Under the pieces are notes generated by a model. That model searched no databases. It was not told the DNA's origin and saw only the letters and a list, made by a program, of their open reading frames with translations. A stretch of 64,000 nucleotides of DNA, from the NCBI RefSeq assembly GCF_000380505.1, contig NZ_AQYH01000010.1, positions 372,001 to 436,000 on the forward strand, in the 5' to 3' direction. This document shows positions 45,693 through 49,623 of the stretch, one piece after another; position 1 is the stretch's first letter, and each line of letters begins with the position of its first letter. Made by a program: the position numbers and the translations under genes. The stretch is from Kaistia granuli DSM 23481 (GTDB lineage: Bacteria; Pseudomonadota; Alphaproteobacteria; Rhizobiales; Kaistiaceae).

Positions 45693-46943
45693 TCAGACCG
45701 GGCGCACCAGGACGTGCTTCTTGCGGCCGAGCGAGATCTTGACCACGCCTTCGGCGGTCAGCGCGTCCGGGCCGACCAGAACCTTCTCGTCGGTCACCGC
45801 CTGGTCGTTGACCCGGAGGCCGCCGCCCTTGATCTGGCGCCGCGCCTCGCCATTCGAGGCAACGAGGCCTGCCTGCACGAACAGCGACAGCACGCCGAGC
45901 CCGTTGGCGAAATCGGAGGCCGGGACCTCGATCGTCGGCAGGTTCTCGGCCAGCGCGCCTTCCTCGAAGGTGCGTCGCGCCGTCTCCGCCGCTTCCTCGG
46001 CTGCGGCGCGGCCATGCGCCAGCGCCGTCACCTCGGTGGCGAGGATCTTCTTCCCCTCATTGATCTCGGAACCGCCAAGGGCAGCGATGCGTCGGATCTC
46101 GTCGAGCGGCAGCACGGTGAACAGTTTCAGGAAGCGCTCGACGTCGCCATCCTCGGTGTTGCGCCAGAACTGCCAGAACTCGTAGGAGCCGAGCATGTCG
46201 GCGTTGAGCCAGACGGCGCCGTTCGCCGTTTTGCCCATCTTGGCGCCGGAAGAGGTGGTGAGCAGCGGCGTCGTCAGCGCGTAGAACTGCTTGTCGAGCA
46301 TGCGGTGGCCGAGCTCGATGCCGTTGACGATGTTGCCCCACTGGTCGGAGCCGCCCATCTGCAGCGTGACGCCATGGCGCTGGTTCAGCTCCACGAAGTC
46401 GTAGGCCTGCAGGATCATGTAGTTGAATTCGAGGAAGGACAGCGACTGCTCGCGGTCGAGGCGCAGCTTCACCGAATCGAAGGACAGCATCCGGTTGACC
46501 GAGAAATGGCGGCCGACATCGCGCAGGAAGTCGATGTAGTGCAGGCCGTTCAGCCAGTCGGCGTTGTTCGCCATGATCGCCGGCTGGGCGCCGTCAAAAT
46601 CGAGGTATTTGCTGAAGGTGCCGCGAATGCTGGCGAGGTTTTCCGCGATTACCTCGTCGGTCAGCAGCTTGCGCGCCTCGTCCTTGAAGGAGGGGTCGCC
46701 GATGCGGGTGGTGCCGCCACCCATCAGGGCGACCGGGCGATGGCCGGTCTTCTGCATCCAGTGCAGGATCATGATGGAGACGAGGTGGCCGACATGCAGG
46801 CTGGAGGCCGTCGCGTCGAAGCCGATATAGCCGGTGACGGGCGCCGCCGCGAAATGGCTGTCCAGTCCCTCGCTATCCGAGCACTGGTGGACGAAGCCAC
46901 GCTCGGTCAGGATCTGCATCAACTCGGACTTGAAGGCGCTCAT
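45693..46943 (-). CDS. tyrS: Tyrosyl-tRNA synthetase (416 aa)
   Basis: Charges tRNA-Tyr. Class Ic catalytic domain with the HIGH-type motif '[13 protein letters not shown]', substrate-binding '[13 protein letters not shown]' and '[14 protein letters not shown]', and the KMSKS-type loop '[15 protein letters not shown]'. The C-terminal S4 domain is '[23 protein letters not shown]'. Start chosen at the ATG at 46943 ([12 protein letters not shown]); a TTG at 46964 is possible but less usual. Next to aroG on the same strand, but 184 bp separate them. Confidence 0.96.
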
Positions 46944-47127
46944 GACGGCCGGACCTTTGGACAATGTTTTTGGATTTGGGCCGCTTTCTAGCAGCCGGAA
47001 CGGGAAATTTCACCTCGAAGGTGAAGGTTCGCGGAGAAAGTGACATTTCGCGGCGCTCGGCCTGCCGAGTGCGACGCCGGGATCGGGAACGCTTCACCGT
47101 CCGGTGACGAGGAAGCGTTCCCGGATT

Positions 47128-48195
47128 TCAGGCGGCGCGGCGGACCGCGGCGCGGCGGGCTTCCACGGCGGCGGCGAGCCGCTCGAGCACGTCGACCGAG
47201 GTGTCCCAGTCGATGCAGCCGTCGGTGATGCTCTGGCCGTAGACGAGCGGCTGGCCCTCGACGAGATCCTGCCGGCCGGCGACGAGATTGCTCTCGACCA
47301 TCACGCCCATGATGCGGGTGTCGCCACCCTCGACCTGACGGGCGATGTCCTCGACGACGATCGGCTGGTTTTCCGCCTTCTTCGACGAGTTGGCGTGGCT
47401 GGCGTCGATCATGATGCGCGGCACGATGCCGGCCTTCTCGGACGCCTTGGCGGCTTCCTCGACGCTGGCGGCGTCATAATTGGTCGTCTTGCCGCCGCGC
47501 AGGATGATGTGGCAATCCTCGTTGCCGGCCGTGGTGGCGATCGCCGAGCGGCCGGTCTTGGTCACGGCCAGGAAATGGTGCGGCTGCGACGCGGAGAGCA
47601 CCGCGTCGAGCGCGATCTTGACGTTGCCGTCCGTGCCGTTCTTGAAGCCGACGGCGCAGGACAGGCCGGACGCCAACTCGCGATGCACCTGGCTCTCGGT
47701 CGTGCGCGCGCCGATGGCGCCCCAGCTGACCAGATCGGCGAAATATTGCGGCGTCGTCATGTCGAGGAACTCGGAGCCGGCCGGCATGCCGAGATCGTTG
47801 ATGTCGAGCAGGAGATTGCGGGCGATCCGCAGGCCCTTGTCGATCTCGAAGCTGCCGTCGAGATCCGGATCGTTGATCAGACCCTTCCAGCCGACCGTGG
47901 TGCGCGGCTTCTCGAAATAGACCCGCATGATGATCTCGAGCCGGTCGGCCAGGTAGGGCCGGATCTCGGCGAGACGGCGGGCGTAGTCCATGGCGGCGAG
48001 GGGATCATGGATCGAGCAGGGGCCGATGACGACGGCGAGGCGGTCGTCGGTGCCCTGGAGGATGTTGTGCACGGAGCTTCGCGAGGCGGCGACCGTCTCG
48101 GACGCCGTCTCGGTGCGCGGGAATTCCCGCATAACCTGCTCGGGCGTGCTCAGTTCCTTCAAATCTCGAATGCGGAGGTCGTCTGTCATCAACAC
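47128..48195 (-). CDS. aroG: 3-deoxy-7-phosphoheptulonate synthase, class I (AroFGH type, 355 aa)
   Basis: First step of the shikimate pathway: phosphoenolpyruvate plus erythrose-4-phosphate to DAHP. Family blocks: 'RLAVVIGPCSIHDPLAAMDYA', 'IMRVYFEKPRTTVGWKGLINDPDLDGSF', 'GARTTESQVHRELASGLSCAVGFKNGTDG', 'ILRGGKTTNYDA', 'IMIDASHANSSKK' and 'MVESNLVAGRQ'. Length is that of E. coli AroG/F/H. A GTG at 48195 sits 8 bases after AAGGAA; an ATG at 48189 is the alternative. Upstream lies a leader peptide rich in Tyr, Trp and Phe and a terminator, so transcription is probably attenuated by aromatic amino acid supply. Confidence 0.95.
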   Translation of the reverse strand: MLMTDDLRIRDLKELSTPEQVMREFPRTETASETVAASRSSVHNILQGTDDRLAVVIGPCSIHDPLAAMDYARRLAEIRPYLADRLEIIMRVYFEKPRTTVGWKGLINDPDLDGSFEIDKGLRIARNLLLDINDLGMPAGSEFLDMTTPQYFADLVSWGAIGARTTESQVHRELASGLSCAVGFKNGTDGNVKIALDAVLSASQPHHFLAVTKTGRSAIATTAGNEDCHIILRGGKTTNYDAASVEEAAKASEKAGIVPRIMIDASHANSSKKAENQPIVVEDIARQVEGGDTRIMGVMVESNLVAGRQDLVEGQPLVYGQSITDGCIDWDTSVDVLERLAAAVEARRAAVRRAA

Positions 48196-48232
48196 GGTGT
48201 GGGTTCCTTATGATTTGACCCACCCGGCGGCA

Positions 48233-48262
48233 TAAAAAAAGCCGCCAGGTGTCTGGCGGCTT
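48233..48262 (-). terminator. Attenuator terminator upstream of aroG
   Basis: On the minus strand AAGCCGCCAG-ACAC-CTGGCGGCTTTTTTT. The perfect 8-bp stem (48241-48260) and seven Ts lie between the leader peptide and aroG, 38 bases before the aroG start, the position of an attenuator rather than an end-of-gene terminator. Confidence 0.9.
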
Positions 48263-48281
48263 CGGGACATTTTGCGGTTTT

Positions 48282-48362
48282 TTAGACCGCGCGCACCCCT
48301 ACCTCCGCCAACGGCAGCGGATAGCTAAAATACCAAGCATAGGTGGCGGCGGCGAAAGTCAT
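48282..48362 (-). CDS. Aromatic leader peptide of aroG (26 aa)
   Basis: From the ATG at 48362 a 26-codon frame reads M-T-F-A-A-A, then TYAWYFSY, then a Leu/Pro/Val-rich tail and TAA. Three Tyr, one Trp and two Phe sit in the first 14 codons, followed by a GCGGT/ACCGC hairpin (48274-48290) and a strong terminator. Ribosome stalling on these codons when Tyr, Phe or Trp tRNAs are uncharged would favour an antiterminator and let aroG be transcribed. TATAT lies 8 bases upstream, so a promoter may be very close and the leader may have a short 5' end. Control by attenuation is inference from a clear arrangement. Confidence 0.8.
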   Translation of the reverse strand: MTFAAATYAWYFSYPLPLAEVGVRAV

Positions 48363-48507
48363 GACAGCGCATATAGATCAGCCGGAGGCGTTTGTCACGC
48401 GGCGGATTGGCGGCGCGAACGAAACGGCCGGACTGTTGCCGATCTGCTCTTTGCCGTCGGCGCGCTTGCGGCTATCCCGGGTTGGACACGCTCCCAAGGG
48501 GGAACCA

Positions 48508-49623
48508 ATGCGCAGAACGGTCGTTGTCGGCCTCATGAGTGGAACGTCCATGGATGGCGTCGACGCGGCGCTGATCGCCACCGATGGCGAGGAGGTCGAG
48601 GCCTTCGGTCCGACCTATTTCCGGCCCTATCGGGACGAGGAGCGCGCCGTGCTGCGCGCAGCCCTCGCCGCCGCCGTCCATCTGGATCGGCGCGATGCGC
48701 GCCCCGGCGTGCTGGCCGAGGCGGAGCAGATCGTCACCGTGGCGCATGCCGAGGCGGTCGAGGGGCTGCTGGCGCGCCAGGATGTCGACGCGCCCCGCGT
48801 CACCCTGGTCGGCTTCCACGGCCAGACCGTCTTCCATGCGCCGGCGCGCCGGCTGACGATCCAGATCGGCGACGGCGAAGCGCTGTCGCGCCGGCTCGGC
48901 CTGCCGGTCGTCTATGATTTCCGCGCCGCCGACGTCGCGGCGGGCGGGCAGGGGGCGCCGCTGGTGCCGATCTTCCATGCCGCGCTCGCGCGCGCCGCCG
49001 GCCTTGAGGGCGACGTCGCCGTCGTCAATATCGGCGGCGTCGGCAATCTCACGCGGATCGGCGCCGACGGCTCGATCGTCGCCTTCGACACCGGCCCCGG
49101 CAATGCGCTGATCGATGATTTGGTGCGCGAGCGGACCGGCGCGAGCATGGATGTCGACGGCGCGCTGTCCTCGTCGGGAACCGTGCACCAGCAGTCGCTG
49201 GCCGAGATGATGGACGATCCCTGGTTCAGTCTTCCGCCGCCGAAATCGCTCGACCGCGACGCCTTTTCGCGCGCGCCGGTGGCGAGGCTCTCGACCGCCG
49301 ACGCGGCGGCGACGCTCGCCGCCTTCACGGCCGAGACGATCGCCCGCGCCGTGGCGCTTGCCGGCGGCGCCGGTGAGATCATCGTCTGCGGCGGCGGCGC
49401 TCATAATCCCGCCATCCTGCGGCATCTCGCCGAGGCGAGCGGCGCCACCGTGCGGCCCGCCGACGCGCTCGGCTGGTCGGGCGATTTCCTGGAGGCGCAG
49501 GCCTTCGCCTATCTCGCCGCCCGCAGCGTCGCCGGCCTGCCGCTCAGCCTGCCGGAGACGACGGGCGTTCCCTATCCCATGCCGGGCGGCGTCCTCGTCG
49601 AGCCGGTGCTTCGGCAAGGGTGA
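48508..49623 (+). CDS. anmK: Anhydro-N-acetylmuramic acid kinase (371 aa)
   Basis: Recycles murein by converting 1,6-anhydro-MurNAc with ATP to MurNAc-6-phosphate. ATPase-fold motifs: 'VVGLMSGTSMDGVDAALI' at the start, 'LVGFHGQTVFHAP', 'VYDFRAADVAAGGQGAPLVPIFH' with the catalytic Asp, 'VVNIGGVGNLTRI', 'DTGPGNALIDDLV' and 'EIIVCGGGAHNPAI'. ATG at 48508 behind AAGGGGGAA. It is divergent from the aroG leader and near tyrS, an arrangement common in alphaproteobacteria. Confidence 0.95.
   Translation: MRRTVVVGLMSGTSMDGVDAALIATDGEEVEAFGPTYFRPYRDEERAVLRAALAAAVHLDRRDARPGVLAEAEQIVTVAHAEAVEGLLARQDVDAPRVTLVGFHGQTVFHAPARRLTIQIGDGEALSRRLGLPVVYDFRAADVAAGGQGAPLVPIFHAALARAAGLEGDVAVVNIGGVGNLTRIGADGSIVAFDTGPGNALIDDLVRERTGASMDVDGALSSSGTVHQQSLAEMMDDPWFSLPPPKSLDRDAFSRAPVARLSTADAAATLAAFTAETIARAVALAGGAGEIIVCGGGAHNPAILRHLAEASGATVRPADALGWSGDFLEAQAFAYLAARSVAGLPLSLPETTGVPYPMPGGVLVEPVLRQG

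Follow-up and report, generated by a model that had tools for sequence, protein, structure and literature searches.

The gene designated aroG lies on the minus strand of the window, by which we mean the whole 64,000-nucleotide stretch of Kaistia granuli DSM 23481 (Hyphomicrobiales) DNA that was analysed. It is preceded by a short open reading frame (ORF) rich in aromatic codons and by an intrinsic terminator, with tyrS downstream and anmK running divergently upstream. The features of the locus are listed here in the order in which RNA polymerase would meet them on the minus strand, starting from the divergent neighbour, with the evidence for each in brackets.

48508..49623 (+): anmK, the divergent upstream neighbour (NF007141, 508 bits).
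48393..48398 (-): -35-like element GTGACA, 17 nucleotides (nt) from the -10-like element (sequence; motif counts in relatives).
48370..48375 (-): -10-like element TATATG, with its end 7 nt ahead of the leader ATG (sequence; motif counts in relatives).
48282..48362 (-): leader peptide ORF, ATG start, 26 codons, MTFAAATYAWYFSYPLPLAEVGVRAV, stop codon TAA at 48284-48282 (ORF list; sequence).
48321..48341 (-): control codons Tyr8, Trp10, Tyr11, Phe12 and Tyr14 (sequence).
48317..48324 (-): candidate strand 1 (CUAUCCGC), able to pair with the strand 2 region GCGGA..UAG (predicted pairing).
48305..48311 (-): strand 2, UUGGCGG, within the leader ORF and a near copy of strand 4 (alignment of 74 leaders).
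48264..48299 (-): predicted inner antiterminator, in which GGGG (48299-48296) faces UCCC (48267-48264) around a hairpin GCGGU/ACCGC (48290-48286 / 48278-48274) whose loop contains the leader stop codon (folding, weak).
48253..48259 (-): strand 3, CCGCCAG, partner of strand 2 in the antiterminator or of strand 4 in the terminator (alignment; folding).
48234..48263 (-): intrinsic terminator, stem GAAGCCGCCAG / CTGGCGGCTTT, loop ACAC and T run (folding; covariation).
47128..48195 (-): aroG, class I-alpha DAHP synthase, 355 amino acids, GTG start at 48195 with a Shine-Dalgarno-like AAGGAA upstream of it (TIGR00034).
45693..46964 (-): tyrS, tyrosine--tRNA ligase, the downstream neighbour of aroG (TIGR00234, 367.9 bits).

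The aroG product scored 533.6 bits against NCBIfam model TIGR00034, far above the cut-off of 173.2. Its score against the AroG model NF006723 fell just under the cut-off (559.4 against 568), while that against the Trp-sensitive AroH model NF009396 lay above it (492.8 against 463). Because the AroG model was missed and the AroH model passed, the name aroG is conventional and gives no sure word on feedback. About 40 nt separate the terminator T run from the GTG of aroG on the minus strand. A first-pass annotation of this DNA had described a 26-codon ATG frame with an aromatic run, followed directly by a hairpin, a T run and the DAHP synthase gene, and a TATAT just before the ATG; each of these elements is present where it had been placed, the frame occupying 48362-48282 (-). 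Among the 362 ATG ORFs of 15–45 amino acids found on both strands of the 64-kb window, the leader ORF has the highest aromatic density and is the only one with five aromatics in nine residues. Since anmK is transcribed divergently, the terminator has no evident upstream gene to serve, and this gene order also favours the attenuator that the annotation had proposed.

The annotation had called for aroG upstream regions to be compared, counting a lack of conservation against the proposal. We found a leader before the DAHP synthase gene in 96 of 98 closest relatives that were fetched, which belong to Alphaproteobacteria, Burkholderiales and Xanthomonadales; with such conservation among the closest relatives of the enzyme, the leader is not a product of chance. 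Across 41 related genomes, that of K. granuli included, the enzyme is present in 18 and the leader accompanies it in 18 of 18. In the named genome collection, 78 of the best 80 of at least 587 confirmed relatives have the leader, and the best 80 are by their selection the closest relatives rather than a random sample. Genera and groups that bear the leader include Devosia, Bradyrhizobium, Bauldia, Methylosinus, Bordetella, Achromobacter, Oxalobacteraceae, Xanthomonas, Stenotrophomonas and Rhodanobacter. One of the two leader-less loci (L092) is on a contig that starts inside a terminator-like GCTGGCGGTTTTTTT; in the other (L094), the gene lies directly behind another gene. A script located the terminator in 93 of the 96 leaders, missing it in L026, L054 and L070. 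Three leaders (L019, L025 and L050) duplicate other genomes in the set and were dropped from later counts, which leaves 93.

The breadth of the leader was examined with a covariance model, R1, built from 74 leaders. Searches of 289 alphaproteobacterial genomes returned full-length matches of at least 59 bits in eight, and these are exactly the eight genomes in which the enzyme was detected at E 1e-40. In seven of the eight, the leader lies just upstream of the enzyme gene; in G227, the two are split between separate contigs, each at a contig end. The other R1 matches at E 0.01 in the class reached 35.1 bits at most and covered mostly the terminator part, with a few full-length ones among them. 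Such weak, mostly terminator-only matches, which also occur elsewhere in the Kaistia genome and in many genomes of the class, are what one would cite for the view that the hairpin terminates some other transcript and that the ORF arose by chance. We give this view practically no credence: anmK is divergent, the strong full-length matches in the class are confined to genomes with the enzyme, and leader and terminator have been kept together before aroG in alpha-, beta- and gammaproteobacterial lineages. We take a chance ORF beside an unrelated terminator as refuted by this conservation.

Applied to 398 genomes of the phylum, R1 gave 59 matches at E 1e-6 or better in 58 genomes. DAHP synthase genes follow 47 of these matches, pheS follows 8 and pheA follows 4; the position before the enzyme was judged from match coordinates for eight g249 loci, which belong to one genus and in which a motif search missed the gene, and the names pheS, pheA and tldD at the loci of relatives are those we presume from our own reading of the translations rather than from a family search. 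The enzyme itself was found at E 1e-60 in 225 of the 398 genomes. Forty enzyme genes lacking an R1 match were chosen to span many families. Two of these (L257 and L258) have diverged leaders, 37 have none, and one was taken without its upstream sequence; among the 37, seven had a short ORF that passed a loose aromatic filter and was judged by eye to be unlike the leader. We observed that the leader is absent in L255, L256, L259 and L094, where aroG lies directly behind another gene (presumably tldD); these loci come from three genomes of 1.7–2.2 Mb and one MAG. A quick tree of 55 leader-bearing and 38 leader-less rows, from which four unparsed leader-bearing loci (L196, L200, L206 and L209) were left out, placed the leader-bearing enzymes in two groups, each of which includes leader-less rows. 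On this tree, a single origin of leader-bearing DAHP synthases was rejected (4 changes, AU p 7e-6), a rejection that the long branch of the f197 group and midpoint rooting make unsafe.

We next consider the amino acids that the leader could sense. Clade groups were assigned from record titles and kinship labels, with L027 grouped with the Alphaproteobacteria according to the position of its enzyme in the tree. Of 57 alphaproteobacterial leaders, 56 have codons for Phe, Tyr and Trp in their control region, as do 5 of 5 leaders from Xanthomonadales. The remaining 31 leaders, mostly from Burkholderiales with a few unplaced loci, all have Phe and Tyr codons, whereas Trp is absent in 27 of them and the full set is present in only 4. 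Codon content suggests that the leader would respond to three amino acids in Alphaproteobacteria and Xanthomonadales and to two in Burkholderiales and the others. The record of L027 is titled Mycobacterium sp. KBS0706; its leader and aroG are of alphaproteobacterial type, and the title may be wrong.

It is quite conceivable, although on balance we doubt it, that the attenuator senses only one or two amino acids, for example Phe and Tyr, and that the Trp codon is a passenger. The absence of Trp from 27 of the 31 Burkholderiales and other leaders, every one of which retains Phe and Tyr, would fit such a reading, as would the aroR leader of Corynebacterium, with its Phe-Tyr-Phe codons: according to the accessible part of the review PMC11802643, which reports on aroR-aroF of Corynebacterium glutamicum (Neshat et al. 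2014), only Phe limitation acts there, and the Tyr codon is present without a response to Tyr. Speaking against a passenger, Trp persists in 56 of 57 alphaproteobacterial and in 5 of 5 xanthomonadal leaders, and it holds one fixed place in all 15 Bradyrhizobium leaders of the same length that were compared (two shorter leaders were left out).

Three of the four sets of leaders examined for selection have low ratios of nonsynonymous to synonymous polymorphism. Over codons 2 to 15 or 16, two Kaistia sets gave pN/pS values of 0.25 and 0.22, and a Bordetella/Achromobacter set gave 0.16; the exception is a set of 11 Bradyrhizobium leaders, in which pN/pS over codons 2-14 is 1.59. In Bradyrhizobium (n=15), codons 8-14 differ by Phe-Tyr exchanges and a single Asn; other changes fall at codons 3 and 4.

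Analysis of the transcribed leader revealed a strong terminator. It consists of an 11-bp GC-rich stem (48263-48238) and a T run that ends at 48234, and the 30-nt stretch 48262-48233 folds with -18.5 kcal/mol (z -6.5), a value that none of 200 shuffles matched. Over 74 aligned leaders, the terminator shows 27 double-change cells; shuffles gave 5.8, and none of 500 reached 27. The same alignment shows little or no variation in the cores of strands 2 (GGCGG), 3 (CCGCC) and 4 (GGCGG). Of the 74 leaders, 73 retain the GG of strand 2, and its aligned position falls in the three reading frames in 65, 6 and 3 of the 74; its retention in all three frames indicates that strand 2 is conserved as RNA and not through the peptide alone. 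These frame counts were taken from the alignment, since in seven leaders (L021-L024, L033, L048 and L096) a fallback motif set the strand-2 core for the fold tests. In L021, L022, L024 and L048, the peptide tail has changed and the CUGGC strand is retained.

The aromatic codons most commonly end 11 nt before strand 2 (45 of 88 leaders measured), and in 49 of the 88 the ORF ends 28 nt past the start of strand 2. Two departures from the usual layout were seen. In some Devosia-type leaders (L021-L024, L033 and L048), the frame is shifted after WYF(S/T) and the tail reads SRWQP, with the strand-2 nucleotides retained; in eight Oxalobacteraceae-type leaders (L066, L071, L075, L079, L080, L085, L087 and L098), the ORF ends 13 nt past the strand 2 start.

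Fold tests covered 88 of the 93 leaders, the excluded ones being the three without a scripted terminator together with L090 and L091, which have no scripted strand 2 or 3 core. When strand 1 and the control codons were masked (the mask extending up to 9 nt beyond the control codons or as far as strand 2), the predicted probability of pairing between strands 2 and 3 before the appearance of strand 4 averaged 0.98 and exceeded 0.5 in 88 of 88. With no ribosome, the same stage gave a probability of 0.43 for 2:3 pairing vs 0.46 for pairing of strand 2 with upstream RNA, and 49 of the 88 leaders favoured the upstream partner; folding energies alone thus show no preference for a 1:2 hairpin. With strand 4 present and the ribosome stalled, the terminator prevailed at equilibrium (0.87 vs 0.13 for the antiterminator), which means that antitermination would have to be kinetic.

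The first-pass annotation had guessed the antiterminator at 48262-48300; these folds place a possible antiterminator at 48311-48253 instead. Its inner part has a mean z of -1.0 over the 88 leaders, negative in 74, and the Kaistia antiterminator fold is not significant on its own (z -1.0, 36 of 200 shuffles as good). The inner GGGG:UCCC helix is paired in 36% of cells of the fixed alignment. Covariation of the whole antiterminator on the alignment, counted as cells paired, did not rise above shuffles (219 of 500 as high), and RNAalifold on the whole alignment found the terminator as its only structure; because the antiterminator core is nearly invariant, covariation is unable to test it. On the predicted pairing, an antiterminator is possible. 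In all 88 leaders, the stop codon falls in the apex of the antiterminator; we dropped this as evidence, since 1509 of 1760 shuffles (86%) enclose it too.

When the RNA was folded with its end placed ahead of strand 3, strand 2 paired upstream. A swap of strand 1 and strand 2 was suggestive overall, own combinations reaching -19.6 vs -16.9 kcal/mol for swapped ones, and uneven in its effect, which was clear in Bradyrhizobium and absent in an Oxalobacteraceae-like set. We infer that the strand 1 partner of strand 2 may vary by clade and that an alternative partner may lie upstream of the control codons.

Elements resembling a promoter are conserved before the leader in Alphaproteobacteria. TGACA or TTGAC occurs at the -35-like place in 46 of 56 alphaproteobacterial leaders; a control stretch taken 60 nt upstream has it in 2 of 56. 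A loose -10-like TA motif occurs at -16..-7 in 48 of 56 vs 0 of 56 in that control. Among 36 leaders from outside this class, the -35 pattern is found in 0 and the -10 pattern in 20, vs 7 of 36 in the control. A plain sigma-70 consensus scan called no promoter here, the -35-like element included. The base before the leader ATG is C in 89% of 92 leaders, giving a CATG context. Shine-Dalgarno-like 4-mers lie ahead of only 11 of 93 leader ATGs, whereas a Shine-Dalgarno-like motif is found at the start of the DAHP synthase gene in 90 of 93 loci when any candidate start is allowed and in 89 of 93 for the nearest start only. The spacing of the elements implies a start point at, or 1-2 nt from, the A of the leader ATG. 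Because this spacing is conserved, we infer that the leader is translated from a leaderless message in Alphaproteobacteria, a reading that the motif counts support for this class and not for all clades. The near-leaderless message that the annotation had suggested from the TATAT motif thus gains support in Alphaproteobacteria from both promoter elements and the scarcity of Shine-Dalgarno-like motifs.

Transcription attenuation as such has long been known. The peptide, strand 2, strand 3, the terminator and their link to aroG are conserved, and very likely they control aroG through ribosome-mediated transcription attenuation, the leader message being leaderless in Alphaproteobacteria. The remaining steps are modelled by analogy. 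Transcription would start at or beside the leader ATG, and in Alphaproteobacteria the leader would be read from a leaderless message. When charged Phe-, Tyr- or Trp-tRNA is scarce, the ribosome would stall on the aromatic codons and block the pairing of strand 1, which would leave strand 2 (GGCGG) to capture strand 3 (CCGCC) as it emerges; with strands 2 and 3 paired, no terminator would form and aroG would be transcribed. When all charged tRNAs are plentiful, the ribosome would run through strand 2 toward the stop codon, strands 3 and 4 would pair, and transcription would end in the T run. This analysis supports the aromatic leader peptide and attenuator that the annotation had proposed for aroG, through conservation in three bacterial groups, a covarying terminator and antiterminator pairing that could form in each of the 88 leaders tested.

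Two other modes of action were weighed against transcription attenuation. Stalling could change the access of ribosomes to the aroG ribosome binding site, and in the predicted fold GGGUGGGU, which follows the terminator, is paired with ACCCACAC immediately ahead of the aroG GTG. We regard translational control of this kind as very unlikely, given that leader and gene are separated by a strong, covarying terminator with its T run and that strand 2 copies strand 4, as fits control of termination. The second or even main function might also belong to a trans-acting small protein or terminated leader RNA, comparable to peTrpL and rnTrpL of Sinorhizobium meliloti, where the accessible parts of PMC7298713 and PMC10117765 provide the precedent of a leaderless attenuator leader in Alphaproteobacteria. 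A trans-acting product is unlikely here: the C-terminal part is not conserved as a peptide in all clades, and in some Devosia its frame has changed with the RNA strand retained.

Attenuation would operate on a gene that Kaistia probably acquired. The enzyme is present in 13 of 14 Kaistia genomes searched, and in all 13 the leader-aroG unit lies between anmK and tyrS (46964-48508 of the window). In 12 of 16 genomes picked from outside the genus, anmK and tyrS adjoin each other divergently, with no aroG between them; in the remaining 4, anmK was not found within the stretch examined. Comparison of these gene orders indicates that the unit was probably inserted between anmK and tyrS in Kaistia. 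A class II DAHP synthase is encoded in 37 of the 41 related genomes, K. granuli included, and in 12 of 12 such loci the script saw no aromatic ORF in the 500 nt upstream. Gene order, patchy occurrence and the tree together point to aroG as an acquired second isozyme that was already regulated.

It is tempting to speculate further, and we do so tentatively, with somewhat less than even confidence in the proposal as a whole. One leaderless peptide may read the charging of Phe, Tyr and Trp tRNAs as an either-or alarm; promoter, leader, terminator and aroG may form a cassette that moves between proteobacterial classes and supplies a second isozyme, under starvation control, alongside the class II DAHP synthase already resident; and the Trp input may have been lost or never gained in Burkholderiales. 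Such a cassette would explain how a transferred gene could arrive already regulated. A conserved attenuator with three control amino acids would serve as a clean natural test case for how several inputs are weighed by a single leader, and the loss or gain of Trp by clade could be compared with feedback on the enzyme. Among the literature matches listed, control of the first step of aromatic synthesis is little described beyond enterobacteria and Corynebacterium. None of those matches describes this leader in Proteobacteria, which is weak evidence given that subscription papers lay mostly outside the search.

Several described systems resemble the Kaistia leader in part. One is aroR-aroF of C. 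glutamicum, in which a leader with aromatic codons precedes a DAHP synthase gene and stalling raises transcription; as described in the accessible part of PMC11802643, that system is set apart by being actinobacterial and by its Phe-Tyr-Phe codons, with Trp unmentioned. The trpL-trpE(G) system of S. meliloti combines a leaderless leader ORF with transcription attenuation in Alphaproteobacteria, but, according to the accessible parts of PMC7298713 and PMC10117765, its 14-amino-acid trpL has Trp codons and precedes another gene. In Acholeplasma, the uORFC-13-1 motif places a Phe-containing upstream ORF before a terminator and aroF; the part of PMC8632094 available describes it only from Acholeplasma and environmental sequences, which sets it apart from the Kaistia leader. 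Attenuation has also been predicted for the class I-alpha DAHP synthase operon aroA-I-alpha(Y)-tyrA of Vibrio (Merino list, cited in PMC1173090), which differs from Kaistia in gene order and clade and, in the accessible part of that paper, is described without a leader peptide.

At gathering scores, no Rfam family matched in the window or in 18 relatives, and at a lax threshold five relatives gave sub-threshold matches only, none of them to Phe_leader or Trp_leader. The window scored 19.3 bits against RF00513 Trp_leader, under the gathering score of 41. BjrC1505 was considered and dropped, with 14 bits vs 50 in the window and no gathering match in the Bradyrhizobium loci given; the literature matches listed for it included one paper, on Herbaspirillum. 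Against RF01859 Phe_leader, which we take to represent pheL, the window scored 23.6 bits; as the gathering score is 55, it is not a member of this family. The aroG leader is a candidate for a new RNA family.

We take pheL and pheM to be the leaders of the enterobacterial pheA and pheST attenuators. These attenuators resemble the Kaistia locus in joining a Phe-rich leader to a terminator, and R1 finds leaders of pheS (8) and pheA (4); they differ in serving other genes and in having mostly Phe codons. The pheS and pheA leaders found by R1 are L210-L214, L216, L218 and L220-L224. The 8 pheS leaders have one peptide or a near copy of it, which ends in FFFYFST, as some aroG leaders do.
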